Below are positions 1 to 32,569 of a stretch of 32,569 nucleotides of DNA, piece after piece. This DNA is from Candidatus Omnitrophota bacterium (GTDB lineage Bacteria > Omnitrophota > Gorgyraeia > JABMRJ01). A program made the position numbers and the translations under genes. Within the stretch, counting starts at the first letter, position 1; each line of letters opens with the position of its first letter. The stretch lies in the NCBI GenBank assembly GCA_013202745.1, contig JABMRJ010000007.1:1-32569 (forward strand). Reading direction: 5' to 3'. The notes below the pieces were generated by a model, which worked only from the letters and a program-made list of their open reading frames with translations, ran no database searches and was not told the origin of the DNA.

Positions 1-3000
1 TCTTTACCATGGGTGCGATGGGCGATTCACCGTGGCTGGGATTGGCTATAGGCGGTTTAGCCGCGATCATCATCGGCGTTGTCAATTTTGCGGTTCCGCC
101 GAGCTCACCTGCGGGTGAGGGGATAGGACCTTTAAGAGAGGCCTTACGCACGGCAAGAACGACCGCCCGGAAGAGACAGGCTATAGAGGCATTGGGCAAG
201 ATTGGCGGCCAAGAGGCATTTAGTATATTAAATGAAGAGTTAGAGAAATTGCAAAAAGGGAGTTGGAATTCAGAACTTAACCGGGCTATATATGAGGCGA
301 TGGCCAAGATCGACTCCTCTAAGGCAAATGCGATCCAGGTGGATCTGGCCGCCAGAGGTGCCACCGAAGGTAAATATCAATGGCGAAATAGCGCCTTAAG
401 ACTTTTAAGGGATAGAGAGGCTGAGTTTACCCCTATTCAGATAGTAAATATCCTTCTTAGTCTCCCATACTATGACAAGGTTAGCATTACAGACTTTATT
501 GAAGGACACAAGATAGAGATAGGCAATCTCCTCATTCTGCTCTGGGATGATAACAAGCGGGATGAGGTCAAAAGATTACTCAATTGGGGCATATCGGATC
601 GTTATTGGCTTAAGTTGGTTGGTGTAAAGCTTTTGGAGCGCCTCAAAGAAGATAAAGAGGTAGTTACAGAAATCCGGGATTATATCTTGGCGGATGAGGA
701 TTTTCAAAAGAAGAGATTAAGGCATCTGTGGTTTAAGGGACTATTTATGCCTGATCTTGAGAGTTTAAGGGGTCTTCTGCATATGGTAGATCAAAGTCAG
801 GCTGCAAAGAGGACCATGTTGAGGTGTCTCGGGGCTAGAATGACCGAGATTAGTGATGATGAAATTGTAGGATTCTTAGAACAGATCCTCGCCGCTAAAG
901 TAAAATACTACCCCATAAAAGGAGAAGCCAGAATTACCTTAGAGCAAATCGGCGGACCAAAGGCAGCGGCTGCATTTGGCAGATTGAGTGAAGAGCCAAG
1001 CGAAACTAGCTTTGAGGGGCTGAGAAAGTGGATGACGGCTTATGTAAAGAGGAAGAGTTGGAATGAGGAGACCATAGAACTCTATGAATCCAATTATAGA
1101 AGGATGGAATTAATTGACCCCGCCAGGGCAATAGAGGTACAGATGGAGATAGCAATGCTTGATAGATGCTGCCTTGGAATACGGAGATTGGCTATGGAGC
1201 TCTTAAGAAAAGCAGAAGTTAAGCTTACTATTATTCAAGCGGCAAGGGTTATCGTAGGCCTTAAAGGTGCACATAGAGACATAGCCTCTTTCATTAGAAG
1301 ATTTGATATAAAAGCGGGTGAAGTTATCATCCAACTTTGGGTGGGTGGTCATCGAGACGAAGTCAAGAAGTTGTTTAGGTTAAGGATGTCAAATCTTTCT
1401 TGGATATGGTTGATAGGAAAGGAATTATTGTCTTATATCCGTAGCAGGAAGAAGGTTAGGGAGGGGGAGGAAAAAGAAGAGAAAGACGTAATCAAAGAGA
1501 TTATGGACTATGTCCTGGATGATGATTTTAAACAGAACGCGAAATTTAGATATCTATGGCTCAAGGGACTCTTTACCCCGGATCTTTATGATAGCTTGAC
1601 TGAACTTGCAGAAAGCGGAGGGGCTATAGCTATAAAGATAAACGCAATAGGTAATCTAAGACCAGGAGTACCTCTTTCAGAAGATAAGGAGATAGTGAGA
1701 TTCTTAGAATCTATAACCCCTGAAAGTGCTAAGACACAATATATGCTTAAGATAGAAGCAATCATCGCCTTATCAAGATTTGATAAGGATAAGGCCAAAT
1801 CTATGCTGGAGGGATTATTCGAAAAAACCGGTGAAGATGATTATGAAGCCTTGTTAAGGATATTGAAAGGATTGGCAGAGATTGGCACAGAGGAGGCTAC
1901 CATACCGCTTCTTCTGGATAGGGTAGGGCTTGAGATAGAAAATGAGAATTATACTGGTTTGATAAACGAAATCCTCGATACCATTGAGAGAATAGCCAAG
2001 GATAGATTCAAGGAATTTCTAAATGAATTATGGCCTGTAGTTGAGAGAAAGATGGAGCAGTATCCCGGAAGTATCCCAGTCCTTACAAAATATTTCAGAA
2101 AGAGAGACCCTGATAGGGTCCGCGAGTTGCTGGATAAGATGCTCTTTAAAAAGAAATACTGGCAGGCGCTTAGTCTATGGATTGAAATGAACAAGGATCA
2201 ATTAAAGAGAGATACTAGAAAAGTGATGGATACTATCTTTAGATTAAACGACGCCGAACTCATTCAAAGATTCTTTAAAGGATGTGAATTCTCATTATCT
2301 GAAACGATCCTTCTTGCTTGGCGGCGGCCCGAAACCAAGGCAAAGCTATTAGGGCTCAAGGCTAAGGCATTGAAGGAGGTAATCTCATGGTTCTTCACCG
2401 ATTTAAAGAACCACCTTGAGAGGATTGAGGGGCTTTACAATGAAGGCTTTTTCGAAGATGACATGCTGGTTGAGATACTTATCGAATTTACCAAGAGGGA
2501 TAGAAATAAGGCAATAGAGCGCTTAAGGGATAAGGATGAGTATGAGGATCAACACGAAGACTTAAGAAAATTTTACTGCAGGATATTAGGAAGGGCCGAC
2601 TCAGGAAAGGTCAAGGAATTATTGCGTATTTTACTACAGTCTAAATATGCGCAAGCCTTAGAGGCAATATTAGACAATCAAGGCATAGATCAATCTGTGC
2701 GAGGTGGCGTAGCATACCTGGCTATTATATGTGAGGATTTAGAGCTGAGGCCTGATATGACTCAGAGAGAACTGGAAGAGCTTATTAGTGAAAGGACCCC
2801 GTTATCCGACAAAGAAAAAGAAGAGATCAAAGAGAGGATAGAGGATATTACCAGAGAGATATGGAATGGTATAGCTGATGGATTGCAAGAGGATTTATTG
2901 GGGGATGGGGGGGCGCATGTAAGGCCTGATGGGAGCATAGCCTCAGTCGCTATACCAGCCTCACCGGCCATGACGATGGAAACGAGGATAGGGCTTGTGC

Positions 3001-6000
3001 AAAAGATGAGGTTTGAGTTGTTGCCTAAAGAAGGAATTACCATAGATGAGTTATTGGCCACTCATAGCAGTATGAGTGTTAGGAATACATTCTTGCGGGC
3101 TATGAACTTTCTGGTGCACCATGAAGTAGCTCATATCATGATTAAAGTCTTAAACGGACGCAAGGCCGAAGGCGAAGAGACAACATATGATATTTTAGTA
3201 CCCGATGAATTCCAAGGCCGGGCCGGAGATGAAGATGTAGAACAGGTGATAGCAGACAGGATAGCCTTTGAGACGGCCAAGAGGATTCATACTAGCACAC
3301 AGACGGGTTATGACAGCTCATTTAATAGGGAAGAAGTAATAGTAGATGCCCATAGGTCTTTTGTTGAGCTTGTATACTTAGTTTTTGGCGATAAGGCCAA
3401 AAAGGCCCGTGCGAACAAGAGGTTCTTAATGGAATGGGCCAGATGCGAATCTATCCTGCGCATACATGCAGAGAGTGATATAAGACCGGAGCTAAAGGAG
3501 CGGAATATCCTTTGGGCGAAAAAGTTCCGGAAAGTAGTAGATCCCAGAAATAGAGATACGTATGAAAGATACGCCGGCCGTATAGAAGGCGGCAGGTGGC
3601 ACGAAGGCGAATGGGCGAGATTATACAGAGGCATAAAAGTGGAAATTACCCAAGATGCACCCCCGTCAACACCGTCAACCCCGGAAGTTGACACAAGTTC
3701 GAGCACTATTGTGCAGAGCCATCCTATTGTGGGGATTTTAGCATTGCTCGCCATAGGCCATGCAACGGAGATCTTCGCTATTGTTGATCCGGGTATCTTA
3801 ATAGTCTATGCAGTAGCCCTATTTCTATTATATTGGATCTGTGTAAATGCAAAGTATATCTATCAAGCCTTATTTAAATCATTCGCGGTTGAGAGTGAAG
3901 TAAGGGAAAAGTCAGGCATGGTAATCAAAATGGGAACCGCCATAGACCGGATCTTTGAAAAAACAAAAGAAGGGCTTGAGATCACAGAAGTTCAAAAACC
4001 ATTGGTGAGATTGAAAACCCAGCTGAGTATAGTCCGAGAATGCAATTTCGAAATTAATGATATTATTAGAGACGCAGAAAGAACACGCGGATTAATAAGG
4101 CATACTATTCCTGGCTCTAGTCTCTTTATAAGATTATCCGAGGTTAGCTATATTAAGTTCCTCTCAATTAATATAGCGGAATTGGACAGGGTTATTAAAA
4201 TAACTCAGTCATCGTTTATAGAGATACGCGCCATCCTTGATTCATTTAGAGAGGACCTTATTAAAGATAGAGATGGGGCAGATGATCCTTCAGAAAGAGA
4301 GCGATTAGACCGAAAGATCGAGGCAGTCAGCGAGATGCTCGGGATTATCGAGCCGTTTGTGGAGAAGAGAGAGATAACCACATCAACCCCTATGGTTGAT
4401 GGAGGTTCAGGCATGTCCGGCCGCGATACATTGATAAGGGCGCGGGTGAGCCTTGTCGGCGGCCCTCTCTTGGCTGTAGAGGCCGCTATCCTGACAGGTA
4501 GTGTTATACAGGGTATAGCGGCATGGGCGATTGCGTTTATAGCTGGCATCCTGGCCCGCAAGTTTGCCGTAAGTTTAAAGGATCATGAGAAGAGGGCCGG
4601 CCCGAGCGAGAGGAGAGAAGTGGCTTATGAAGAGGGAAGAAAGACCCATCTCTCTAAGCGCTTCAAAGATTTAAAACCACTCCAAAAGCTCTCCACCCTT
4701 GCCCACGAAGGGGCACACGTCATCATATCTTACATACCGATCCTAAGGCGCATAAATCAGATTCCAAAGATAAAAGAGATTTTTCCTCAGAGCATCCAGG
4801 CCATGCCGGCGATAGGGGCTCTCCTTTACCTTGGTTTCGGAGTCGGCCCTGTTATCGGCGGGGTCTTCCCAGCAATATTTTTGATTACGGCTATAGCAGG
4901 GTTGGCCTCTGTTGAGATAAGACCGGGGACCCTGGCCCTTAGGAACGCCCGTGCGCAGTTTAAACGGGCGGCCAAGATTATCAGGCTGGACAAGGCAGTG
5001 GTCAAAAGGCTTATGGGCTTTAAGAAGGTACTGGTGATAGATATACCGGTTAAGATGAACAACGGGATAGTTCGGATATTCCGCGGATACTGCGCTCATC
5101 ACAACGATGCCAGGGGCGCGTTAAAAGGCGGCATAAGGTTCCATCCCGATGTGGACGAAGATGAAGTGAAGGCCTTGGGCATGTGGATGACCTGGAAGAA
5201 TGCAGTCGGGGGTTTTATCTTCGGCGGTGCTAAAAGCGGGATTATAGTCGACCCGAAAAAGCTTGAGCCGGATGAGCTTGCCAGATTGATAAGGGGTTTT
5301 GTGAGGGCTATATTAGAAAAGGATGAGAATGCCATAGGGCCGTATCTTTATATACCTGCGCCTGATGTAGGGACAGACTCTGGGCTTATGGCGTGCTTTG
5401 CCGATGAATATATAAGGTATCTTATTGAGAGAGATTTTATAAGGGATATTGAGGTTAAAATTGCATTGCATGAGTTACGAGGCGCCCTGACAGGCAGACC
5501 CGAGGATTCATTATCTACGCCGTATTTAGATAGATATGCGCGGATTGTTAGCAAGAATAGGCTTGCAGACAGAGAGGAACTCGCGGTTGTAACCGCAAAG
5601 CCCGTAGGAAAAGGCGGCTCTAAAGGCAGGGACATAGCCACAGGCCAGGGTGGTTTCTATTCTGCGAGGGAGGCAGCAAGGCATTTCCTGAAGAAGGCCT
5701 TAGGTGAATGCTCTTGCGCTATTGGCGGATACGGGAAAGTCGGCAGGGGATTGGCTACAGCCCTCTGGAATGAAGAAGAAGGGACAAAGAAGATAGAGGT
5801 AATTTGGGATATAGACGGAGGTATCTACAAGAAAGGCGGAATCGATATTGCCAAACTGAATGAGCATATAGACAACGGCGGCACGATTTACGATTTTGGA
5901 GGCATAGACGGGCAGGTAGGTATCGAGGAGGCCGCCGCCATGGAGGTTGACATCATATTCCCCTGCGGAGGCGATAGGCAGATTACGGCCGGGATCGCCA

Positions 6001-24000: not shown

Positions 24001-27000
24001 TAAAGGTAATGATTAGCTTGCCGAATCATAAACCCGATGAAGACCCTGCCTTGCCCAAGACGTTAAGAGGCTTAATCTTTGCCCCCCGAGAAGATTCAGA
24101 CGCCAAGCCGGCAACCGGCGCAGGCATGATATCGGCCTTAAGCTGGGCGCTTACGAAGATGGGTATTAACTTAAAATGGCAGGCAGGGATTGAGCAGATT
24201 ATATTCTGGGGTATTAATGTAGGGCTTATATTTGTGCCGGGTTTAGGGAGTGTCTGGGCCAGCGTAATTACATGGGGCAGCTTTGCATTCTTACACATAT
24301 TTACTATTGAGGGCATGCCGAACGCGCCGCCTGTGTCTGTATTGGCAATCGCCTCTATGAACGCCGCTCTTACAATAGCAACACTTTCATTAATACACGC
24401 CTTCCCGGGTGCGATACTCGCCTACGTCTTTGCATTGACAGCGTTTAGCATAGCAACAAAAGCCCACCATATGGCGAATTTAGAGGAGATGATCACGTCA
24501 TTCTTACCCATGCTTGCCTTCGGCTCCATAATTTATGCCATCCTCGCAGCTTCAGGAGCAACTATACCTTCCCATGTAATCGCAGTAATCGGTGCAGCAT
24601 TAGGCGGGGTTATGTTTATGGCGCCGGAGTCTAGCGATTCACTGATTTCACCCGAGATAAAAAGCGCCATCGAAGAATATATGAGGCTTAAGCTTGGAAT
24701 GATAGATGAGGTTCAGTCTGATAACCGGGATGGTTATAGAGAGAAGAGGAGAAAATTATTGGATCTTATGGGTAATATATACCCTCTTATAAAAGATCTT
24801 TCCTTTGAAGTCATGGCAGGGCTTTATACCGAGATTAAAGAAGAAAAGGGCCTTCCGGACTTCTTATTGGCTAATCCTGTGGAAATACAGCGCATGCTTA
24901 CCCCCGACTTTACAGATGAAGAGCAGAGTTTAATAGAGAAGATAGTGGGCGAGGTAGTAGGAGAAGTGTTTGACGACGAAACCGAAAGAAAAGAGTGGGC
25001 CGCCAAGATACTTTCCGACATAGTGCCGTGGCGCATGGAGATATTCTTACCTGAGGAGATTCCGCAGGAACTTGGGGAAGCATGGCCAGAAATTATGTTT
25101 GGAAGAATTGCAGAGGACTTGCCTAGGTTGGCAACAGCCGGAGGCTTTTTTGACCCTCTGACCAAGAAAGTTTGCTTCCCGAAAATTGATGACCCTATCA
25201 TATGGAGATTTTCTCTTAAGCATGAACTGATACATTATCTAGCCTTCCATAACGTTATTCTAATACCTCCGGGTTTTGAATTCGTCACTACCGCAGTACA
25301 GGTTCTTGAAATTGCCGATCAGGCCGGCGGTGAGAATCTGGGAGAGTATGCGAAGGAGATAGGTTCACCCGCGATTATGGATTTATATAATGAAGGAAAG
25401 TCCGTATTTAAAGAAGGACATACCTCATTCTTGATCGAGCCAAAGGCCTCATGGGAAGAAGGTTTCTATGTGAATATAAAATTTCTCGAAGAGAGGGTAA
25501 GAGAGGTATATAGAAGAAAGGGCATACCTTTAGCGAGACTAGCCTATGATGAAATGATGGATCGCGAAGTCGGGGTAATGTTCGCAGGTATTATGGCGGA
25601 GAATCGAAGCCAGAATCAAATAGCGCCCCTTAAGACCCTTAAGAGATTCTTTGAGGCCCTTTATGCTAGATTTAGGCCGCCCACGGGCTACGAGAAGCGA
25701 TGGGCAGAGCAGACCCTTCTACCGCGACTTAAGGATTACACAAAATTTAGCTTGGGGCATGATGTTAATATGCAGCCGGTAGAGACCGCCGGAGGGCTGG
25801 GTGTATGGAGATATACCCCGGTATCGGAAAGGCTGGGTGTCCAGACCTATGTCCCGACAGACTTATATCCGAGAGATTATGACGGTCCGAACGACGATAC
25901 AAGAAAGGACAAGGCGATGGACAGGGCCTTCGGCCATCTATTTCAGTCGATATATCGGGCCCGATGCAGCCACTGGAATGATGTGAGCAAAAGCGTCGAT
26001 ATGCCTGAAGAAGAGAAGGCCTTACTGGCGATTATGTGGCAGGTCTTAGAGACGCCGCAGGTATTAAGAGATGGTTTCTCGGAGAATTTATTAAATATAG
26101 AGGAATTTGGAGATCTTGCCGGAGCTACCGGCGCAGCCCGATGGATAAGGCTGATATATGAAGAGCGCTATAGACCGGGAGATGATGAGGTTGCAAGAAC
26201 CGTCTTAGCCGGTTTACCCCTACACCTTCAGTATCTCGATACATTCCTATATCGCTGGGTATATGCGCATGTGGATCCGGATGATAGGAGGCTAGCCAAT
26301 AATGATGTAAAGAAGGCGGTTTTAAGAACGCAAGGGGCATGGGCGACCGTATTTAATACCGAAAATATGCCCCTTGAAGATGTTAGAAGGCATGCATTAG
26401 ATGTAATATGGCCCGAGTATAGAGTGCTTTACAATAAAGCCCAACAGGATGAGATACGCAGAAGGGTATTCGAAAGGATGCAGAAAGAGAAGGAATGGCC
26501 TGGAAGCTGGGAAGCCCTGCCGCCTGAGGAGCAGGAAGCTATAGAAGCAGAGTGGAATCGACTTCCTCAGGAGGTAAAAGATGCCATACATCAGGCGGTG
26601 GAAAAGATGATGCAACAGGCATTACAAGGCTTTATGTCAGGTCTAACTTCAGGCGGGAGAGAGATGCCGCAGCCGCAAGAAGGCGCAAAAGGTATTTCAA
26701 TCCCGACCCCGGGGGCCGGGATTGGTGGTATAAGCGGTGAGGGTGAAAAGCCAGATCTAAAGAAGCAATTGGAAGAACTTGAGGGCATGCTCGGCCGGCT
26801 TGAAGAGGAGATAGACGATATTCAAAGCCAGGCAAAAGGGATATCGAAAGGTGCGGGCGATATTTCTGAAGGAGGAAGAGAGATAGGCGCCGCTTCAGGT
26901 ACAGGAAAGGATCTAAAAAAAGAAGCGCAGGAGCTCTCTAATAAAGCAGAAGTTTTGGAGGATAATGCGCATAGATTAAGGAATACAGGGACTGATTTTG

Positions 27001-30000
27001 CAAGCCAGGCCCAGGCTTCAAAGAATAGCGCACAAGCGAGTCTTACAGATCCCCGTTCATCGGATCAGATGGAGGGCGTTGCAGGGCATACGCAAGGATT
27101 GGACCAAAAAGGCCAGGAGATTCTGGATAAGATTCAAGAACTCGAGCGCCGGGTATTAGAGTTAAAGAAAAAAGTTGATGCGCTGAAGGGTGCCGTTGAA
27201 GGAGGGGGAGAGACAGAGACGGTAAGCGGCTATGCCGGAAGGGTAAGCGAAAGCGCAGATGATGTTACTGATAGGGCCGAGGATATTTCGGAGATTGCTC
27301 AAGGGATAAGAGGGCTTTTGAATGAGGTCGGGAAGATGGTTCAGGATAAAAGGGGCGAGCCAAAGGCTAAGCCAAGTGTTTCAAAAGGTGAAGAAAAGAC
27401 AAAGCCGTCAGAAAAAAGCGGTGCCCCAGCGATTACAGAGAAGGCGGCCCCTTCTATTGCACCGGAGCCAATAAAAGGGCTTCAGGATTTAATTGAAGCT
27501 TTAAAGAAGGAGCCCGCTTTTAAGCCTGCCGGGCAAGAAGACGAAGGTTTGAAAACGCCGGTGTCACCTCCATTACCGATAGAGGTAGATGTGGACGAGT
27601 TATTAAAAAAGGTAAAAGAGACAGAAGATAGAAGGACCGAATCCACCACTGGATTGAGCGCACAAGAATTGGCAGAATATACCGAATTCAAGAGGAAGAT
27701 AGCTTCTCAAATAGATAAATTCAAAAGAGAATTTAGGAAGCTTTTAGTACCGGAAGATATGGAAGCCGAAGAGAGTGGTTATGCAGAGGGAATAAAGCTT
27801 ACAGATCCAGTCGCGGCCATAACCGGAGACGGAGGGTTTTCAAGGAAGACCGAACTCGTGCCGTTTGGCATGAGGATATCTATTGGAATAGATACCAGCC
27901 AGAGTATGGGCTATAACGATAACAAGAGGATTCAAGCCGCACGGGCGGCTTTGTTTATGGCGCTTGAGGCCTTCTTGCCTCTTATTATAGAACTTAGGAC
28001 CTATGGTATTTTGCTTGAACTCGAGGTCTTTCATTTTAACAATTTTCTCGATAAAGAAGCAGAGGTTTTATTGAGCTATGAAGAGTCAAGAAATATCCAG
28101 CTTGCCGGAATACCCGCTAAGGTATGGGACATACTAAGGAATATCCGCCCTGTCCAAGGCGCCTCTAGTAACGATGCCGAGGCGTTGGCAAAGATGTACC
28201 AGAGGGGGATGAAAGATAAACCCGCCAATATGCACATCTTCGGCCTATGGATAGGCGACGGAAATTTCGGAAGTTTCACCAAACCGATGCAGGGGCTTAT
28301 TACACGTATGAAGCAGGATAAGTTCCCTGTTCTGGCCGGCGCTGTTGGCGATGAAGAGAACCATAGTTTCATGCGTAACATCTTTGGCGAGAACGAGGCT
28401 GTAATACTCGATTTCAATCGCCTGAATAAGCTAGGTGAAGATATAATGGAGAAGGCCAAGCGTATACTATCTCCGGCAGGAAGACCTTTATGGAAGGGTT
28501 TCCTGCTTTCCATAGCCCCTTTACTTCCGATATCGGGCCTATTTGCCCTTGCCGCAAGATTTGGGGATGAGGTAGGAAGGCTGTTTTTACAGTCCACCCC
28601 GGAGGCCCCGGAGATAGCAGACGAACCATATCCGGATATCGATGAGCGATTCGATTTTTATATACGTCATGCAGGCGACAGAAGATACCTTATACATAAA
28701 AATAAAAAGGGCGTAGTCGACGTGGAGATAGAGATGGGACCGGGCGGCGAGCTCATTCCGGATGAGCCATTTCCATATACGCCTACCAATGAGAGATTAT
28801 TAGTAGAGATACTCCAATCGCTTTATCCTAACAGGTATAAGCACTATACCTCTGTTTCACATGATGGGAAGATCTTTATGAAGAAGATTGATGGGGGAAT
28901 GCAAATATGGGATTCGGTAAAAGAAGAGCTCTTAATGTATGTAGACAGAAAAGAGACCTTCTGGGAAGAGGCCGTGGATGAGAAAGGGGTCTTTTATTCT
29001 TCGGATAAGAAATTTAAACTTGTAAACAGAAAGAGACTCTTTATTCAAGATGGCGCTTCCTATAGACCCGTAGGAGAGCTGGATGAAGAATCGGGCATGC
29101 CGAATTCTATCAGTGTCGACACCCAGGGGTTTGTATATGTATTTTATACAGGAGACGGCCCCAAGGACAGGGTTGGAATCTATAGGCGCCGACAGAATGA
29201 ATATAATCTTGAATACGACCTTACCTATAAAGAAGAGGTCGAGGAGATAAAGGTACTCAATCTTGAGGGAGAAGGCGGTGTGGGTAAGGGCGAGCTTATG
29301 AAGTTTGCCTGTCGTTTGATGAATAGACACTTAGCCCAGATGAGTGCACATGCCGGGATGAATAAGGAAGACTTTAATTTCTACACTACAATAAGCGAAG
29401 ACGGAGAGCTCCTTTCCACCGGCCAAAGGTATTCACCATTGAATGTAGGCAGTGAGTTCGGATGGGTAGTATTCATCGATGAGTTTAACAAAGTAAAACA
29501 GCATGTCCGCAAAGGACTCCAAGATGAATTTCAGTCAAGGGTATATGTGCGTGAGGATAGACGTTATCCGATGCATCCCCATGCCAGGGTTGTTGTGGCC
29601 GGAAACCCGCCGGGCGTTCACGATATTATTCTTTTTGACGATGCGGAAGAGAGGCGCATGAAGACAGTACATGTAACCTGGCAGCCGCCGGCAGAGGAGT
29701 TGGAGATCTTGAAATTCTACGCCTTCAGGGGCAGGCGGATTACAAGACAAGAGAAAGCGGAACTCGAGACCATATTTAGAAATTTAATAAGAATAGCAGA
29801 TATGCTGAGGCTCCAATACGCCGGTTATGACAATGAGCAGATTCAGGCCATATTTAATGACTGGACCCTCCTTACCGATCCGATAAAACGGGCAAACTTT
29901 AGACCTAAGTTCCAAAAAGCGCAGATGATGTGCCGCGCTCCATCGCCCAGGCTTTTAGTAAATATGGCCGTAGATTTAACAGCATTCCCTTCGTATCGTA

Positions 30001-32569
30001 GGTATAGACCATGGTCTATCATAAGAAGAATCTTCAATTTCGATGCAGAGGTATCGCCGCCCGGCCACTGGGATACCGTTGAGACGCTCTTTAAGAGTAT
30101 ATTTGAAAATGTGAAAGATAAGGAAGGTAAAGAAATCACCCCTTCAGTTACGTTGGATGATGTAAGCATAGAAAGTACACAGGTCGACGGCAGGACGATT
30201 AAGATATTGAAGATAAAACCAAAGCCCACCACATTTATAAACGAGAGAGACGAGCAAATGACAGTCGAATGGGATCCGGTAGAGATCCAGCTTCACCCTG
30301 ATGCACGGGGCCGGCTTGACGGCATGACAAGAGAATTATTCGAATCCCCAAGCATCGCCCTTCGTACCTATGAGGTGCTGCAGGACCGCATGCCTCTACA
30401 CAAGGATGAATTCGGTAGAGATTTTATCTTTGTAGGATTGCCTGATACAGGGAAGAGTTGGTTCTCAGAGAGGATTATAAGACTACTTTGCGGCCCTGAT
30501 ATGTTATCGGTTACATTTCAGAGAGGGACTCAGCCAGAGGATGTAACGGTAAGAAGACATATAAAAAAGGCCAGAACCGGCTGGACAGCACGGCCTTTAA
30601 TTACAGGTTTTGGAGACAGAGATAAAGTCGACAGCGACCCTGCCCAGAGGGGTAAGATTGTCCGATGTGAAGAGACGAACCAGGCCAATCCGAGACTTCT
30701 TTCCATATCGAGCGATGTAAGCCAGAACAAGCGTTTTATGACGCCTGATGGAAAAGAACATCACGCTGGACCCGGTTTCGGCACTATAGATACCATAAAT
30801 CCGCCCGGAAGACAGACATCTGTCTATGCCTTCTCACCTGAATATTTGGAACGGCGCACAATCTGGAGTTTCAATTTCCCGCCGCCTGAAGAAGAGGTAG
30901 ATATATTATTTAAGACATCAGGCCGAATGCTGAATACATATTTTATAGGGCATAAGGGTGAAGAGACCGGCGTGTGGAAGGGATTGATGGAGGTTATAAT
31001 CAAATTGCGCCAGATTGCCAAAGATAACCCGCAGGCATTACCACGTGCGCCCGGATTGAGCGCTACAAAGGACTTTGTAAAGACCGTCCGCAGTTATTAT
31101 GAGTCGGCAGCAGAAAATCTGGACAACTTTATTCTTACTAATTTCTTACGCTCTTATAATATTTCAGAGGAATATCACCCCGTAGTAATCAAGGCCTTTA
31201 AAGAGGCAGGGTTGTGGAACGAAGAAGGGACCGCTATCGAGACATTTATGGCCGGCCAGCCGATGCTGCTCGAAGGCTTAGAGCTCTTTAGAGTGCCCCA
31301 GACAGAGGATCCAGAAGTAAATAGGATCCTTTCCATGTTGCAACTGACCACAAAGAGTCCAGTCATACCAATAATGCTGAATGGCCTCAAAGATAAAACC
31401 ACCCTTTATATTCAGGAATGGAACGAAGCCGATATGGGAAGACGCCTTGCCATTGCCGCTAATCTAGTAGAGGCATACCAAATCCTTGGCGAGATAATAG
31501 AAAAGAGAGACCATTTACCCGAGAATAAGGAGAAGATGGAGGAGGCGAGGGGTGACATAAAGAAACATTTTAGTACATGCAATTGGTATCTTTCCATTCT
31601 GAATTACGAACCACAACAAATAAAAGAGGCCGTAAAGGTTATACCTAATACAAGCGATATTAATATAGATGAACTGTTAGTGTCGCTACAGCTATTTATC
31701 GATGTTGACGAATATGTACAGGATATTATTCAGAGGATAGACAGTGCCATAGATACTCGCAGGGCAGATTTTACAGGGAAACTTCTCCATGAACTCGCCC
31801 CTGACTTAACAATAGTTGAAAATACATATTACACAGTTTGGGATATAAATAATAAACTTCCAGACGATCACGCCTTCTCGCTATTCAACAGAATAGGCGA
31901 TGTTATTAACGAAAGCCCCTTTCCGTTGCCACAGCAAGAAATGGTGATAAGACAGAATTTATCATCGAAGACAGAGGAATTTCAAAATAAGACCGGAACT
32001 AGCGGCATACCCATCCTAGACGCGACAGAAAAAATAAAAGAGAGGCTTAATATAGAAGGGGATGCCAGAGATGTTTTATTGGAAACGCTGCGAGGCTATA
32101 AGTTATTCCTGCCCAAGCTATACAGATACTTAATAGTTAAGACTATACGAGCCGAACAAGAACAAGAGCGAAAAGAATCGCTTACTGCTTGTGAATCACT
32201 CTATCACATTTGGCAAGAGACGATAAGATCATACAGAAAACCGACTCCCCTAGACTGGTTTCAGCAGTTCTTATCACAACTAAAAAGGCCTGTTCCGGTT
32301 GAAGAAACGCCTGGTGAAGAGAGGCCTGAACCTCAATATCCTTTCTTATGGCAGATATTAGAGGACGGCCTTATCTCTGGCAGCGCCAGATTAAGCATAG
32401 ATGATGAGGTAATAGGCAGGATAAAAGAGAGGGTCGAAGGGGTTGATGTAGAGGAATTATATAATAGAAGTAAAACAGAATATTACTTAGGCCAATATCT
32501 ATATGGCATAAAGAAGGATAACCAAGAGGATCAAGACCTATTAAACAAGGCCTTTGATGCCGCAAAAAA
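1..32569 (+). CDS. Internal part of one giant multidomain membrane protein gene (both ends outside window)
   Basis: Frame 3 is open from position 3 to 32567 without an in-frame stop, giving about 10,855 residues, and the gene runs off both edges. Recognisable domains lie in this same frame from start to end (GDH near 5000-6330, J-domain near 11030, radical SAM near 17660, NagB near 21420, VWA near 27890, AAA+ near 29270 and 30440), so no frameshift splits it. About a dozen membrane segments or hairpins separate soluble domains. Four HExxH motifs and three CPBP-like membrane modules recur along it. There is no gap with a promoter, terminator or leader, so the domains must be translated together unless internal initiation occurs. 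Ultra-long ORFs are known from Omnitrophota, and that assignment is an inference. The function of the whole protein is unknown; a self-processed polyprotein and an envelope-spanning scaffold are both possible. Confidence 0.97.
33..95 (+). other. Transmembrane segment at left edge (domain of the giant CDS)
   Basis: Residues 11-31 are a Gly/Ala/Ile-rich hydrophobic helix followed by a PP-rich turn. It resembles the second helix of the hairpin modules at 7773-7931 and 9486-9644, which also end in an A(A)xP turn. The window therefore probably opens inside such a module. The ATG codons at 9 and 18 could in principle be starts, but only eight bases precede the first, so this cannot be judged. Confidence 0.6.
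513..887 (+). repeat. Internal protein duplication, copy 1 (helical repeat unit)
   Basis: About 125 residues that reappear at 1308-1715. Shared landmarks in the same order are LLILLW, RDEVKRL, a DYILAD-D block, LWFKGLFMPDL, and a closing DDEIVGFLEQI. The similarity shows in the protein but not as long identical DNA, so the duplication is old. Confidence 0.7.
1308..1715 (+). repeat. Internal protein duplication, copy 2 (helical repeat unit)
   Basis: About 136 residues matching 513-887: VIIQLW, RDEVKKLF, a DYVLDD-D block, LWLKGLFTPDL, then DKEIVRFLESI. The extra length comes mostly from a charged Arg/Lys/Glu insertion near 1443-1490. Confidence 0.7.
2901..3690 (+). other. Zincin-like metallopeptidase domain 1 (HEVAH motif)
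   Basis: The zinc-binding signature HExxH occurs as HEVAH at 3120-3134 (residues 1040-1044) within an HHEVAHIMIK helix, preceded by hydrophobic residues as in zincins. A strongly acidic helical segment around 3230-3290 (EDVEQVIADRIAFETA) could provide the third, glutamate ligand of a gluzincin, but this is a guess. Known members of the superfamily hydrolyse peptide bonds. The domain follows the HEAT region and is followed by a Pro/Ser/Thr-rich linker (3660-3700) and a membrane hairpin. HExxH can occur by chance, but three more copies in similar settings elsewhere in this protein raise the likelihood. I could not assign a specific peptidase family. Confidence 0.5.
3702..3856 (+). other. Membrane hairpin module (QSHPIVGI type)
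   Basis: Two hydrophobic helices joined by a short loop. The entry sequence STIVQSHPIVGI resembles GTVARNHPVVGI at 7773 and GTVARSHPIAGI at 9486, so this is a diverged member of the same recurring module. It separates zincin-like domain 1 from a helical region. A hairpin returns the chain to the same side of the membrane. Confidence 0.75.
3857..4382 (+). other. Long-helix, coiled-coil-like region, unrecognised
   Basis: About 175 residues of charged and hydrophobic heptad-like helix (examples near 3950-4080 and 4130-4370) directly after a membrane hairpin and before another. The arrangement recalls the helical signalling or spacer regions that follow membrane anchors, but no family motif is seen. 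No function is assigned. Confidence 0.5.
4383..4940 (+). other. Membrane module enclosing a HEGAH zinc-peptidase-like motif (zincin-like 2)
   Basis: A Gly/Ser-rich linker leads to two hydrophobic helices (4446-4556), a charged loop, the HExxH sequence HEGAH at 4704-4718 (residues 1568-1572), then two more hydrophobic helices (4803-4919). HExxH next to membrane helices is the general layout of integral-membrane zinc proteases (M48 and M50 types). The further ligands of those families could not be identified, so the family is uncertain. It lies immediately before the glutamate dehydrogenase domain, where a protease could cut or where the helices simply anchor the enzyme. Confidence 0.5.
4983..6330 (+). 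other. Glutamate dehydrogenase (Glu/Leu/Phe/Val dehydrogenase) domain, apparently complete
   Basis: This domain matches NAD(P)-dependent glutamate dehydrogenase, which interconverts glutamate with 2-oxoglutarate and ammonia. All expected landmarks are present in order: KGGIRFHP (Lys codon 5124), MTWKNA (Lys 5196), GGAKSG (catalytic Lys 5232), IPAPDVGT (Asp 5364), AKPVGKGGSKGR with ATGQG (5595-5650), the Rossmann GGYGKVG at 5724-5744, ELANGPTT near 6030, and PDIFANIGGVGVSYFEW with Ser at 6132. About 45 extra residues replace the short segment usually found between FADEY and VVTxKP (5412-5582). The domain is about 440 residues, close to the free-standing enzyme. Standalone GDH is a soluble hexamer, so a copy fused inside a membrane polypeptide is very unusual. 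Conserved active-site residues argue that it is, or recently was, active. Substrate preference within the family is not certain. Confidence 0.93.
6366..7110 (+). other. Uridine-kinase/phosphoribulokinase-like P-loop domain with altered Walker A
   Basis: After a helical lead-in, a P-loop occurs at 6552-6575 as GPLSVGKV, followed by a VLNLDAYPEG strand and loop like the LDDYF region of uridine kinases. Then come an IVEGTRTLDE motif near 6776 and PLTSLDLRL at 6888-6914, which leads into a basic helical C-terminal part ending with LPYEIALIKDKVWPLL. This order matches the uridine kinase group fused to TGS domains in other bacteria. The residue after the P-loop Lys is normally Ser or Thr, which binds Mg; here it is Val (codon 6573). 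That suggests weak or no phosphotransfer. It sits directly behind the GDH domain without a membrane spacer. Another P-loop kinase of the same superfamily remains possible. Confidence 0.65.
7111..7772 (+). other. Nucleotidyltransferase (Pol beta superfamily) domain 1
   Basis: A helical part (7111-7360) precedes the nucleotidyltransferase signature: Gly-Ser at 7452-7457 (IYGSTLSDER) followed by DID at 7488-7496 (SSDIDLIL). This is the hG[GS]...DxD pattern that binds Mg-NTP in the minimal nucleotidyltransferase fold (MNT, KNTase, Cca types). Such enzymes transfer nucleotides to proteins, RNA or small molecules. The third acidic residue may be the Glu of EVEL near 7728. The domain closes with a charged linker leading to the membrane hairpin at 7773. 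The substrate cannot be predicted. Confidence 0.65.
7773..7850 (+). repeat. Direct DNA repeat, partner of 9486-9563
   Basis: 78 bases with 9 differences from 9486-9563 (about 88 percent). Codes for the entry and first helix of the membrane hairpin. Confidence 0.88.
7773..7931 (+). other. Membrane hairpin module, copy A (GTVARNHPVVGI)
   Basis: About 53 residues with two hydrophobic helices and an AAPP exit turn. It is a close paralogue of the hairpin at 9486-9644: the first 78 bases differ at only 9 positions by my count, including a perfectly conserved stretch of about 30 bases. The two copies bracket the third HExxH domain. A third, more diverged copy lies at 3702. Confidence 0.85.
7932..9230 (+). 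other. Zincin-like metallopeptidase domain 3 (HELAH motif)
   Basis: HExxH appears as HELAH at 8619-8633 (residues 2873-2877) in the context GTRYHELAHARDHSLG, which is zincin-like. A candidate third ligand is the Glu in LAITEASAYLRS around 8844-8879, spaced and shaped like the Glu helix of gluzincins. The N-terminal half is mixed alpha/beta without recognisable motifs; the C-terminal part includes EPWWGIFNLYNP (near 8892) and a Gly-rich loop. The domain is enclosed by two nearly identical membrane hairpins. Peptidase activity is inferred from the motif only. Confidence 0.55.
9231..9485 (+). other. Acidic linker and small helical unit
   Basis: A Glu/Thr/Lys-rich linker (9150-9290) is followed by about 60 residues forming a compact helical unit with a short beta end (FEERDGKWYRVRG, ending near 9478). 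The unit leads directly into the membrane hairpin at 9486. No family was recognised. Confidence 0.4.
9486..9563 (+). repeat. Direct DNA repeat, partner of 7773-7850
   Basis: Copy of 7773-7850, lying downstream of zincin-like domain 3. Synonymous positions are largely conserved, so the copy is recent or has been homogenised. Confidence 0.88.
9486..9644 (+). other. Membrane hairpin module, copy B (GTVARSHPIAGI)
   Basis: Two hydrophobic helices with the same entry motif and AASP exit as the hairpin at 7773-7931. Near-identity at the DNA level, including synonymous positions, indicates recent duplication or gene conversion. It separates zincin-like domain 3 from the second nucleotidyltransferase-like domain. 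Confidence 0.85.
9645..10349 (+). other. Nucleotidyltransferase-like domain 2
   Basis: The core reads MIGNYVKYPRFNDIDIMIL, with DID at 9903-9911 and an upstream Gly-Asn (9873-9878) in place of the usual Gly-Ser. A following strand, KVECEIF near 9990-10007, sits where the third acidic residue of the fold is expected. C-terminal helices follow (10080-10340), as in MNT-type proteins. GS to GN weakens the nucleotide-binding loop, so activity is uncertain. The domain lies between hairpins 9486 and 10350. It shows only fold-level resemblance to the domain at 7111-7772. Confidence 0.5.
10350..10500 (+). other. Two-helix membrane segment
   Basis: Two hydrophobic stretches rich in Ile, Ala and Val (10359-10410 and 10431-10493), separated by a Gly/Ala loop and followed by the basic stop-transfer-like KMINRRRE. 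The sequence is unlike the SHPI-type hairpins, so it is a different anchor. Confidence 0.75.
10501..11109 (+). other. Basic helical linker, RGRP motif and J-domain (DnaJ-like) with intact HPD
   Basis: After a helical stretch, a very basic segment contains RRGRPGRP at 10881-10904, whose RGRP core resembles an AT-hook. The J-domain follows (10938-11106): a first helix, then NWEDVKRAYRRLA, then HPD at 11028-11036, then the third helix with QAEARFKVIGAMYK. The HPD loop is what stimulates the ATPase of DnaK-type Hsp70, so the domain should be able to recruit Hsp70. Its place close behind a two-helix anchor suggests Hsp70 recruitment at the membrane, perhaps to help fold or translocate this giant chain. 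The AT-hook reading is weak, since short basic Gly/Pro linkers can imitate it. Confidence 0.85.
11110..11534 (+). other. Helical region, unrecognised
   Basis: About 140 residues of mixed charged helix between the J-domain and the first CPBP-like module, including a Trp-rich stretch (11330-11385). The end is basic (ERGKRERRLLRSL). No motif was recognised. Confidence 0.4.
11535..11911 (+). other. CPBP/Rce1-like multi-pass membrane module, copy 1
   Basis: A hydrophobic, multi-helix block. Three short motifs appear in the order and rough spacing of CPBP glutamic intramembrane proteases (Rce1 / Abi family, usually EExxFRG, FxxxH and HxxxN/D): EQVIFW at 11613-11630, FGLLH at 11703-11717, and HDIWN at 11862-11876. 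Glu-Glu is reduced to Glu-Gln and the Arg is replaced by Trp, so catalysis may be lost. The block starts with GAGMIPALSWALTKM and contains GMPNAPP, both repeated in the copies at 14436 and 24108. The family assignment rests on motifs alone. Confidence 0.5.
11731..11832 (+). repeat. Direct DNA repeat, partner of 14632-14733
   Basis: These 102 bases match 14632-14733 with only 3 differences by my count. The offset of 2901 bases is constant through the preceding module (11538 aligns with 14439), so the two modules align without gaps for about 295 bases. Confidence 0.9.
11912..14435 (+). other. Large unrecognised soluble region (about 840 residues)
   Basis: The region lies between two copies of the CPBP-like module. 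The first third is helical and basic. A middle part (12600-12960) contains many Asn, Ala and Tyr residues (for example QYAAPLAYRLGG). The last part (13080-14400) is mixed alpha/beta, with a hydrophobic helix near 13597-13633 (GLLVYAGMVIWHL) and a Cys-containing start (VPCTEARFGRP at 13077). I see no P-loop, HExxH, DxD or CxxC pair. No function is assigned. Confidence 0.4.
14439..14653 (+). repeat. Direct DNA repeat, partner of 24117-24331
   Basis: These 215 bases align without gaps to 24117-24331 (offset 9678). I count 24 differences, about 89 percent identity, including an uninterrupted run of 53 identical bases. Many synonymous sites are conserved, so this is recent copying or conversion rather than protein-level constraint alone. 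Confidence 0.9.
14632..14733 (+). repeat. Direct DNA repeat, partner of 11731-11832
   Basis: Matches 11731-11832 with 3 differences in 102 bases. It codes for the segment from GMPNAPP to the LPYIATP helix of the CPBP-like module. Confidence 0.9.
15060..16300 (+). other. GT-B-like glycosyltransferase-type region (tentative)
   Basis: The N-terminal part begins with a strand and a Gly-rich loop (EIFIPCWTKEGLGDL, 15096-15137) then a helix ending DALNKRG, as in the first Rossmann half of GT-B enzymes. The C-terminal part has LLLGISDFGIVSGANTYMDA (16122-16181), which looks like the donor-binding half, where a strand-loop SGA-T motif is followed by a helix and a PPFAVFP strand (16209). This resembles nucleotide-sugar transferases only in layout, and catalytic residues cannot be named. 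The region follows the membrane helices at 14990 and precedes a helical stretch before the radical SAM domain. Confidence 0.35.
16301..16940 (+). other. Helical linker region, unrecognised
   Basis: About 210 residues of mostly charged helix between the GT-B-like and radical SAM regions. It includes a Pro-rich turn at 16545-16590. No motif was recognised. Confidence 0.4.
16944..18260 (+). other. Radical SAM domain with N-terminal B12-binding-like Rossmann domain
   Basis: A Rossmann-like half (16944-17440: KILFVTHAG, then FDIVCYTTQN and LLEFGGE strands) has the layout of the cobalamin-binding domains found in front of many radical SAM proteins. It lacks the DxHxxG cobalamin motif, so it may not bind B12. 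The radical SAM half has the cluster-binding CPLGCAFC at 17658-17681 (Cys codons 17658, 17670 and 17679; CxxxCxxC). It continues with an acidic strand (LIFFNDDDF, 17827-17853), FFVYTGYES near 17920, and KRILVGQETF near 17998. These match the beta strands and SAM-contact positions of the TIM barrel. The enzyme would generate a 5'-deoxyadenosyl radical from SAM; the substrate is unknown. Such oxygen-sensitive chemistry points to an anaerobic cytoplasm-side location. Confidence 0.88.
18261..18806 (+). other. Helical linker region, unrecognised
   Basis: Charged helical stretch of about 180 residues joining the radical SAM and DHH-like domains. No motif was recognised. Confidence 0.4.
18807..20040 (+). 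other. DHH-family phosphoesterase-like domain, metal site degraded
   Basis: The fold signature of RecJ/archaeal DHH phosphoesterases is recognisable. VLVYDNSVDGVASAAIVERA (18822-18881) stands for the usual H-x-DADG block, IFANLNI near 18981 for the DLG strand, FIINHHGN at 19047-19070 for the IDHH motif, SSSTTAYLAV for the helix after it, and LGAVGDNHD at 19269-19295 for the fourth motif. Metal-binding residues are altered: the first H-x-D pair reads DNSVDG, the DLG strand reads NLN, and DHH is NHH (Asn codon 19053). This looks like an inactive or repurposed phosphoesterase. A second, DHHA1-like part extends to about 20040. Family members are nucleases or cyclic-dinucleotide phosphodiesterases. 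Confidence 0.7.
20041..21314 (+). other. Unrecognised mixed region (about 425 residues)
   Basis: Contains a beta-rich stretch (20190-20380, with a YIYLKYDHRGN hairpin), another strand block (20485-20650, ending YLFINTARWSYEGFC) and helices leading to the NagB-like domain (20850-21300). No catalytic motif is recognisable. It separates the DHH-like and NagB-like domains without any membrane helix. Confidence 0.35.
21315..22440 (+). other. Glucosamine-6-phosphate deaminase (NagB/6PGL) domain
   Basis: Matches the sugar-phosphate isomerase/deaminase fold of NagB, which converts glucosamine 6-phosphate to fructose 6-phosphate and ammonia. Landmarks: ATGSTMLSLYK (phosphate loop, from 21411), FNLDEY (21498-21515, Asp 21507), RWYMWENFF at 21555-21580, LQFLGVG near 21791, GTGGHIGFNE (21879-21908, His 21891, Glu 21906), and AVTAGIATIMGAQRIV (22242-22289). 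In NagB the loop reads G-x-D-G-H-I-A-F-N-E; here the Asp, an active-site residue, is replaced by Gly. About 25 extra residues lie between the LGVG strand and the GHIGFNE loop. The fold is confident, but activity is doubtful. A PIG-L-like region follows, as in known NagB-PIG-L fusion proteins. Confidence 0.85.
22441..23890 (+). other. PIG-L (LmbE-like) N-deacetylase domain fused to NagB
   Basis: PHSDDVAICISGLLFKL at 22725-22775 corresponds to the zinc-binding PHPDD motif that opens PIG-L deacetylases, and TTILTATNGYTAVW to the next strand. Further on are AAESLGID (23203-23226), LDLPFYLT (23247-23270), and a late DIDPRGTH block at 23649-23669 whose His (23667) matches the third zinc ligand region, then YHGAWGEYP near 23755. 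In several bacteria a NagB domain is followed by this domain in one protein, which supports both calls. Family members remove acetyl groups from GlcNAc-type sugars. An insertion (22900-23200) makes it longer than usual. The P to S change in PHPDD is mild, and the His and Asp ligands are kept. Confidence 0.7.
23891..24107 (+). other. Acidic linker
   Basis: About 70 residues, Asp/Glu/Pro-rich, joining the PIG-L-like domain to the third CPBP-like membrane module. No motif was recognised. Confidence 0.5.
24108..24640 (+). other. CPBP/Rce1-like multi-pass membrane module, copy 3
   Basis: Same start as the other copies (GAGMISALSWALTKM). EQIIFWG at 24192-24212 (normally EExxFRG), FAFLH at 24282-24296, and HHMAN at 24465-24479, which matches HxxxN. 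The part after GMPNAPP diverges from copies 1 and 2, with a different set of Ala-rich helices, then a further helix and the APES exit near 24628. This looks like a homologous front half joined to a different back half. Loss of the second Glu and of the Arg argues against catalysis. Confidence 0.55.
24117..24331 (+). repeat. Direct DNA repeat, partner of 14439-14653
   Basis: About 89 percent identity over 215 bases with 14439-14653. The match ends at the GMPNAPP codons, after which the two copies are unrelated. Confidence 0.9.
24641..25790 (+). other. Zincin-like metallopeptidase domain 4 (HELIH motif, candidate Glu ligand)
   Basis: HExxH as HELIH at 25221-25235 (residues 8407-8411) sits in WRFSLKHELIHYLAFHN, the typical helix of gluzincins, after a beta hairpin (FFDPLTKKVCFPK, 25146-25184). 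About 64 residues on, FKEGHTSFLIEP (25407-25442) has the EGxT pattern often carrying the third, Glu ligand of gluzincins (Glu codon 25413). This is the best supported of the four HExxH regions. N-terminal helices (24680-25060) and C-terminal helices (25480-25740) surround the core. It directly follows the third CPBP-like module. Specificity is unknown. Confidence 0.65.
25791..26640 (+). other. Helical region before the VWA unit
   Basis: Begins with a beta-rich, Pro/Tyr-containing stretch (25790-25900), then long helices. The last helix has the run AVEKMMQQALQGFMSGL (26596-26646) before Gly-rich sequence. N-terminal helices with an acidic or Gly-rich middle in front of a VWA domain recall CobT/NorD-type chelatase or activator subunits. 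This comparison is an inference. Confidence 0.35.
26641..27480 (+). other. Low-complexity and coiled-coil tract
   Basis: A Gly/Ser/Pro/Glu-rich stretch (26650-26760) is followed by heptad-like coiled coils (26763-26840, 26920-26990 and 27090-27190). Between them lie Ser/Gly/Ala/Gln-rich segments in which short GI/DIS units recur (for example GISKGAGDISEGG). The tract ends in a Lys/Pro/Ala-rich linker (27350-27480). No catalytic motif. It would act as a flexible or oligomerising stalk in front of the VWA domain. Confidence 0.65.
27481..28560 (+). other. VWA domain with intact MIDAS, followed by a transmembrane helix
   Basis: A charged helical lead-in (27650-27780, EFKRKIASQIDKF) precedes the VWA fold, as in CobT, NorD and other AAA+-partner VWA proteins. 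The MIDAS metal site is intact: GIDTSQSMG with Asp 27891, Ser 27897 and Ser 27903 (DxSxS). A later ASSNDAEAL (28161-28187) carries the downstream Asp position, and LWIGDGN (28239-28259) fits the third MIDAS loop. One hydrophobic helix (28497-28558) follows. VWA domains bind a divalent metal and partner acidic residues, and they commonly work with MoxR-type AAA+ ATPases; here both are on the same chain. Confidence 0.85.
28561..29240 (+). other. Beta-rich region, propeller-blade-like, unrecognised
   Basis: Short strands with Tyr, Gly and Asp turns, for example PNSISVDTQGFVYVFY (29101-29148), resemble a single blade of NHL/kelch-type propellers. Only one or two blades fit, so this may be an insert between the VWA and AAA+ units rather than a full propeller. 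Confidence 0.4.
29241..29730 (+). other. MoxR/midasin-like AAA+ domain 1 (Walker A altered, Walker B intact)
   Basis: Walker A region GEGGVGKG at 29268-29291 has the loop and Lys (29286), but the usual following Thr/Ser is Gly (29289). Walker B is strong: WVVFIDEFNKV, with Asp 29478 and Glu 29481. The sensor-1 strand VVVAGNPP carries Asn 29604. This order matches the MoxR/CbbQ/midasin AAA+ clade, whose members remodel protein complexes together with VWA proteins. Walker A loss predicts reduced nucleotide binding, with catalytic Glu kept in trans or cis. It is followed by AAA+ domain 2 on the same chain. Confidence 0.75.
29731..30290 (+). other. AAA+ lid and linker region
   Basis: Helices (29750-29830 and 29840-29990) in the position of the AAA+ small domain, then a Tyr/Arg/Pro-rich helical stretch and a beta hairpin (IKILKIKPKPT, 30199-30231). 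This links AAA+ 1 to AAA+ 2. No separate function is assigned. Confidence 0.5.
30291..30960 (+). other. AAA+ domain 2 (Walker A intact, Walker B altered)
   Basis: Walker A GLPDTGKS at 30435-30458 is complete (Lys 30453, Ser 30456). Where Walker B is expected, KIVRCEETNQ (30654-30683) has Arg and Cys in the hydrophobic strand and Glu in place of the first acidic Asp; the second Glu (30672) remains. Sensor-1-like FGTIDTINPP carries Asn 30798. C-terminal Phe/Pro segments match the MoxR lid start. AAA+ 1 has the reverse defect, so the two may form one functional composite pair. Confidence 0.72.
30961..32569 (+). other. Helical C-terminal portion within the window, unrecognised
   Basis: About 535 residues of predominantly charged helix after AAA+ 2, with an occasional Trp and Tyr-rich helix. 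Reading continues past the right edge (last codons AAA then two bases). No motif was recognised; HELAP at 31788 is not a metallopeptidase signature. Confidence 0.45.

Follow-up and report, generated by a model that had tools for sequence, protein, structure and literature searches.

Open reading frames (ORFs) longer than 20 kb have been reported from 77 of 116 Velamenicoccia genomes, and Candidatus Velamenicoccus archaeovorus LiM encodes a protein of 39,678 amino acids with 42 membrane helices, peptides of which rose in attached cells (PMC10066038). Few domains are annotated in these giant ORFs (PMC10066038; Seymour et al. 2023), and it is partly because so few domains could be named that the roles of Omnitrophota giant genes are obscure. 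For the PVC superphyla, proteins of up to about 85,800 amino acids have been cited (PMC12057145). A giant modular protein with carbohydrate-binding and toxin-like structures is described from the Menyafoubacteria, a sister lineage, and is interpreted as extracellular (PMC12057145). The extracellular giants of Apilactobacillus kunkeei (3,000-8,000 aa) are encoded in a tandem array (PMC12863079); they come from an unrelated phylum, and the likeness considered here is one of organisation.

Here, a stretch of 32,569 nucleotides (the window) from an Omnitrophota genome was analysed. With the LiM-type giants the window shares its phylum, an ORF of more than 20 kb, many membrane segments, the lack of a catalytic RNA inside the ORF, and poor conservation between relatives. 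Published Omnitrophota giants contain few domains, or adhesin and carbohydrate domains, whereas the window encodes intact central-metabolism enzymes that have stand-alone paralogues in the genome. The Menyafoubacteria protein is likewise giant and modular, but no carbohydrate-binding or toxin-like structures were found in the window. The size of the window ORF is ordinary for the phylum; less ordinary are the intact housekeeping enzymes and the presence of signal sequences on enzyme-bearing ORFs of relatives. On balance, the evidence leans towards the window encoding a section of a modular enzyme chain that is exported or spans the membrane, the product of one of several giant Omnitrophota genes.

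Frame +3 of the window is free of stop codons from base 3 to base 32567 (10,855 codons, or 10,853 when the count begins at the first ATG, base 9) and is open at both ends. The other five frames contain 319-911 stops, and about 679 are expected in 10,855 random codons of the same base composition (log10 P = -304). Codon-position GC is of the coding type (high GC1, low GC2) in nearly all 1.5-kb bins. The next longest ORFs, of 196 and 173 aa (14048-14638 and 28076-28597, both on the minus strand), lie within the giant frame and appear chance-like. These results confirm the initial annotation of a single ORF of more than 10,800 codons that fills the window. Its claim that neither gene end lies inside holds as well: the window is exactly one entire contig (G000:C75, 32,569 bp), and both gene ends are therefore unseen. 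A search with the contig ends revealed no overlap of assembler length with other contigs.

Within the window, no tandem repeats and no Rfam matches were found, and simple consensus scans for internal promoters scored at or below chance. Terminator-like sites in the first half are somewhat above expectation (24 versus 13.4 in shuffles, sd 3.3), and internal starts with a Shine-Dalgarno sequence occur at 13% per 60 codons in frame versus 15% in another frame.

The frame could in principle result from chimeric assembly, contamination or an altered genetic code. The source is a fragmented metagenome-assembled genome (1.67 Mb, 195 contigs, 91.5% complete, 4.6% contaminated), and the tip of a sister contig, C173 (L004, minus strand, first 50 nt), has two in-frame TAG codons where its paralogue on C155 has AAG; these are either real nonsense changes or contig-end error. 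However, 32.6 kb without a stop, a uniform coding signal and matching composition argue against an artefact (in tetranucleotide usage the window correlates at 0.95 with C173 and at 0.85 with the genome's ordinary genes). Closed giant ORFs of 9,603-12,928 aa are also present in other assemblies, and since one of 12,701 aa lies within a 1.59-Mb contig, an assembly artefact is unlikely for genes of this kind. General stop depletion was rejected and an altered code is not needed, because ordinary contigs of the same genome carry normal ORFs and stops. Overall, we regard an artefactual origin as extremely improbable.

The features identified along the window, all on the plus strand, are as follows.

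3-32567, plus strand: giant-gene interior, an open frame of 10,855 codons (ORF scan; the contig ends are the window ends)
129-326, plus strand: HEAT-repeat region (PF13646, E=9e-11)
3120-3134, plus strand: HExxH motif 1 (HEVAH), a putative metallopeptidase site (motif scan)
4704-4718, plus strand: HExxH motif 2 (HEGAH; motif scan)
4947-6323, plus strand: embedded glutamate dehydrogenase (PF02812, 6e-41; PF00208, 2e-54; T. maritima GDH)
6480-6992, plus strand: P-loop nucleoside-kinase-like domain (weak NF006746/AAA_16 matches)
7410-7592, plus strand: nucleotidyltransferase-like motif (YGS...SDIDLIL; by eye)
7770-7946, plus strand: membrane hairpin repeat, copy R1 (hydropathy, repeat comparison)
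8619-8633, plus strand: HExxH motif 3 (HELAH; motif scan)
9483-9659, plus strand: membrane hairpin repeat, copy R2 (63% amino acid identity to R1)
9855-9992, plus strand: second nucleotidyltransferase-like motif (by eye)
10953-11111, plus strand: DnaJ domain with HPD motif (PF00226, E=2.5e-10)
11538-11876, plus strand: repeated membrane module, copy 1, with CPBP-like motif order (sequence comparison)
14439-14777, plus strand: repeated membrane module, copy 2 (sequence comparison)
17046-18179, plus strand: B12-binding-like and radical SAM domains, CxxxCxxC present (PF04055, E=1.4e-17; PF02310 weak)
18840-19334, plus strand: DHH/RecJ-like phosphoesterase domain, motif partly degenerate (NF053576, 5e-9)
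21345-22868, plus strand: glucosamine-6-phosphate-deaminase-like and PIG-L-like unit (NF002557, 4.6e-54; PDB NagB matches)
24117-24476, plus strand: repeated membrane module, copy 3, modelled with AlphaFold2 (sequence comparison)
24879-32240, plus strand: 2,450-aa block co-linear with an ORF of genome G047 (25% identity, E<1e-160)
25221-25235, plus strand: HExxH motif 4 (HELIH; motif scan)
27855-28232, plus strand: VWA-like domain with DxSxS motif (by eye; without Pfam match)
29280-29642, plus strand: AAA+ domain 1, MoxR/dynein-type (PF07728, two stretches; Walker B)
30423-30815, plus strand: AAA+ domain 2 (PF07728, E=1.8e-21 over both AAA+ domains; NorQ match)
32334-32567, plus strand: helical repeat at the contig end, like the start of sister contig C147 (sequence comparison)

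Domains were called with Pfam and NCBIfam, and inspection by eye added the VWA domain and the two nucleotidyltransferase-like motifs. Recognisable domains had been described throughout the frame; they do occur along it, but well over half of its length lies outside them. Simple hydropathy gives 24 hydrophobic 19-residue segments in the window.

Giant frames are not confined to the window. In the same genome, at least seven more contigs are occupied by such frames, either over their whole length or at an end: C173 (4,815 aa), C190 (3,700), C45 (3,480), C155 (2,836), C103 (2,021, with a stop), C147 (1,833) and C159 (1,218). Together with the window they comprise 30,758 codons (92 kb, 5.5% of the assembly). 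Among about 28 arbitrarily sampled unmasked contigs, two were wholly open, so more giant contigs probably exist. Their domains are varied. C173 encodes UDPGP, GHMP kinase, helicase and GNAT domains and, by eye, a ROK-like one; C190 encodes glycosyltransferase, HD, kinase, methyltransferase, GNAT and pterin-binding domains; C45 encodes M50-like, glycosyltransferase, MatE and GGDEF domains; and C155 encodes a long TPR array. On C147, a complete acetate kinase (E=1e-142) with every catalytic motif in the alignment kept is inserted into a membrane module, one half of which lies on either side of it. C45 has a signal sequence at its start, as judged by a rough rule (described below), and C155 begins inside a signal sequence and runs on into a domain shared with the C173 tip. 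These add further N-termini, giving at least three different N-terminal regions and therefore at least three giant genes in the genome. A single giant gene in the order C173-C75-C147-C103 is ruled out by the N-termini on C155 and C45. No overlap was found among the giant contigs, and C147 was rejected as the direct neighbour of C75: the two share 18 nt, a suggestive repeat only, compared with the exact 57-bp overlap of the truly adjacent contigs C171 and C135. Thus, beyond the initial annotation, the genome carries several giant genes, and the chain includes intact housekeeping enzymes that are also present as stand-alone proteins.

The best PDB match of the embedded glutamate dehydrogenase (GDH) is the Thermotoga maritima enzyme (E=8e-88, both domains aligned). 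Like this ELFV-type GDH (PDB 2TMG), it has dimerisation and NAD domains with aligned catalytic residues; the lysines, Asp and Ser needed for catalysis are present, as is the GxGxxG motif. The embedded enzyme differs in sitting within a giant chain and in an insert of ~55 aa between the two domains. The GDH followed by the P-loop kinase forms a unit that is co-linear in genomes G117 and G144. Elsewhere in the window, the NagB-like part reads GTGGHIGFNE against GxGxDGHIxFNE, so that the catalytic Asp is seemingly replaced, and the DHH and AAA motifs, read from the sequence, are partly degenerate; for these reasons not every window domain is likely to be active. In contrast, the motifs of GDH, acetate kinase, DnaJ, radical SAM and GHMP kinase are intact.

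This mixture of intact and degenerate sites bears on the view that the protein is an adhesin or coat protein, as in Ca. V. archaeovorus, with enzymes as decayed passengers or structural beads. Such a role corresponds to the published view of the phylum's giant ORFs (PMC10066038) and would accommodate both the 24 membrane-like segments and the degenerate active sites. However, profile searches found no adhesin or carbohydrate-binding domain in the window, and the five intact motif sets speak against decayed passengers. We consider an adhesin or coat protein quite unlikely.

The genome has a stand-alone GDH of 468 aa (G000:C105) and a stand-alone acetate kinase split over C171 and C135, and identity of the embedded enzymes to these is ~27% for GDH and about 54-59% for acetate kinase; an origin of the embedded copies by recent duplication of the genome's own enzymes is therefore not supported. 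In trees, the stand-alone GDHs form a group with 100/100 support and the embedded GDHs fall outside it, while the embedded acetate kinases cluster weakly (72/89).

A hydrophobic module of ~120 aa recurs in three copies in the window and is also present on C147 and C173. In 14 copies from many genera, a Glu and an FxxxH motif are invariant and an HxxxN motif is nearly so, and dN/dS between copies is 0.22-0.48, which indicates purifying selection since duplication. The order of the three motifs on successive predicted helices is that of CPBP/Rce1-like proteases (PF02517). The second Glu and the Arg of the CPBP EExxxR motif are not conserved, the former being Gln in the module and the latter replaced, and the loop before the last motif is longer. 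None of the 14 copies matches PF02517. Comparison of the module with 20 CPBP-family loci by hhalign gave E=0.036 and lined up the module's first two motifs with those of genuine CPBP proteins. An AlphaFold2 model of the module has four helices at moderate confidence (pLDDT 78), and a Foldseek search of this model against the PDB returned no significant match. As a separate observation, the genome itself (G000) has no canonical PF02517 match, compared with 20 of 24 searched genomes that have one; the missing gene may sit in the unassembled part of the genome.

Peptidase-like sites raise the possibility of a self-processing polyprotein, in which the chain's own peptidases (HExxH sites and CPBP-like modules) would cut it into enzymes in the manner of a viral polyprotein. 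HExxH motifs are in excess both in the window (4 versus 0.26 expected in shuffles) and on C173 (2 versus 0.10), and an M50-like site is present on C45. The near-invariance of the three module motifs and the CPBP register of two of them point in the same direction. Membership of the CPBP family nevertheless fails by Pfam, by Foldseek and by hhalign significance, a cleavage motif was looked for and not found, and envelope proteins commonly carry peptidase-like sites too. We therefore judge self-processing to be unlikely.

In named genomes, all loci with the membrane module are from Omnitrophota, including Ca. Tantalella remota, and named Omnitrophota are among the members of the source organism's class. 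With giant ORFs already published from this phylum, the earlier reading of an Omnitrophota-type ultra-long gene that exceeds the window is supported. Among the giant ORFs compared, none is co-linear with the window throughout. Homologues in these ORFs cover about one third of the window and are spread over different relatives, so that the window is a mosaic. The longest shared block is the 2,450 aa held in common with a complete, signal-bearing ORF of 7,423 aa in G047, and includes a metallopeptidase-like region, a coiled coil, the VWA domain and the two AAA+ domains. Orthology of the window to a family of 9,500-12,900-aa ORFs is not supported, as no long match was found.

Other relatives combine related enzymes in different ways. 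A contig of G001, from the same family, is one open frame with glycogen debranching, phosphorylase and GH77-type domains beside GDH. In two relatives, acetate kinase and phosphotransacetylase (PTA) occur in one ORF, in one of them with PfkB and NagB-like domains as well; the PTA-AckA ORF (L101:5407-10386, minus strand) and the PfkB-NagB-AckA-PTA ORF (L102:9968-18040, plus strand) both have a signal-like start.

Export would require a signal at the N-terminus, which can be sought in relatives with a readable start. A rough, home-made rule was used (basic n-region, hydrophobic stretch, small residues at the cleavage site). By this rule, signal sequences are present on several relatives' enzyme-bearing ORFs and on 0 of 28 stand-alone enzymes. 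A few more enzyme-bearing ORFs appear signal-like by eye yet fail the rule, and of six small GDH loci two show no signal, one of these being cut off by its locus. A DTLRP/STLAP-like motif just after the signal was seen in 4 of 16 large signal-bearing ORFs (in G047, G040, G144 and G126) and in 0 of 108 small ones, against a background of 0.3%.

A related feature is an N-terminal domain of ~500 aa (alignment A4), found in 145 of 292 class genomes and 119 of 227 genera. Frames with this domain range from about 500 to 12,928 aa, are often 9,500-12,900 aa, and also occur as tandem arrays; in G117, a tandem row of four giant genes takes up ~92% of an 86-kb contig (G117:C68; L225-L227, L106, L244). 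All complete giant A4 ORFs that were read start with a hydrophobic, signal-like segment, often ending near QQxxWAQ. The A4 domain has weak EreC/ChaN-like fold matches in the PDB and a sub-threshold PF04187 match. In the genome under study it is present on C155 and partly on C173, contigs separate from that of the window.

The signal sequences on related enzyme-bearing ORFs also weigh against a cytoplasmic multi-enzyme machine, anchored in the inner membrane, that channels metabolites. The cofactors of GDH, acetate kinase, AAA+ and radical SAM domains are cytoplasmic (textbook background), and hydropathy shows no membrane segment in C103, the only fragment whose end can be read, both of which would suit such a machine. 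On the other hand, the enzymes do not form one evident pathway, and we find this explanation very unlikely.

Taking the relatives as a guide, the favoured exported or membrane-spanning enzyme chain would have a Sec-type signal sequence at its start and the ~500-aa N-terminal domain next to it. It would either be exported or, by way of its many hydrophobic segments, be threaded through the cell membrane. The gene may owe its length to enzyme and membrane modules that were captured in frame and shuffled, probably as repeats recombined and adjacent genes of tandem arrays fused. The product could function as a cell-envelope scaffold that displays enzymes for the conversion of nucleotides, sugars and amino acids at the surface or brings them into contact with another cell, and such a scaffold would serve the epibiotic or predatory lifestyle that has been suggested for Omnitrophota. 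The location of the window protein, its translation as one chain and its function are all points that we infer from sequence. Several observations speak against an envelope chain: it is hard to see what ATP- and NAD-dependent enzymes or AAA+ domains would do outside the cytoplasm; the A4 N-terminus sits on other contigs, none of which is joined to the window; and several domains appear degenerate in a chain that is poorly conserved among relatives. The data do not separate the polyprotein, adhesin or coat, and cytoplasmic-machine explanations well from the envelope chain.

A bolder version holds that Omnitrophota export entire series of functional enzymes of central metabolism as giant proteins (with glutamate dehydrogenase, acetate kinase and phosphotransacetylase, sugar kinases and glycogen-degrading enzymes), and that these act outside the cell, or in a prey or host cell that has ATP, NAD and substrates. 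We consider this conceivable but rather improbable; were the enzymes indeed active outside the cell, another cell could be fed on or manipulated in an unusual manner. Where a named enzyme within a giant chain has its catalytic residues intact, its domain can be expressed and assayed by itself, and the A4 domain with its signal, present in half of the class genomes examined, provides a handle with which to define, count and locate the family.

GDH-like domains are found in many other long frames among 147 class genomes, including frames of 8,868 (G001), 6,804, 4,435 and 3,160 aa, and weaker GDH-like matches lie in frames of 44,856 and 33,383 aa. One apparent frame of 24,712 aa (G140:C26:575077-649212; L060-L063) was rejected as a masked run of N adjoining an ordinary GDH gene. 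The 44,856-codon frame (G115:C3:2-134569; L078-L084) is open without any N, has its 5' end cut by the contig start, and is longer than the 39,678-aa LiM protein.
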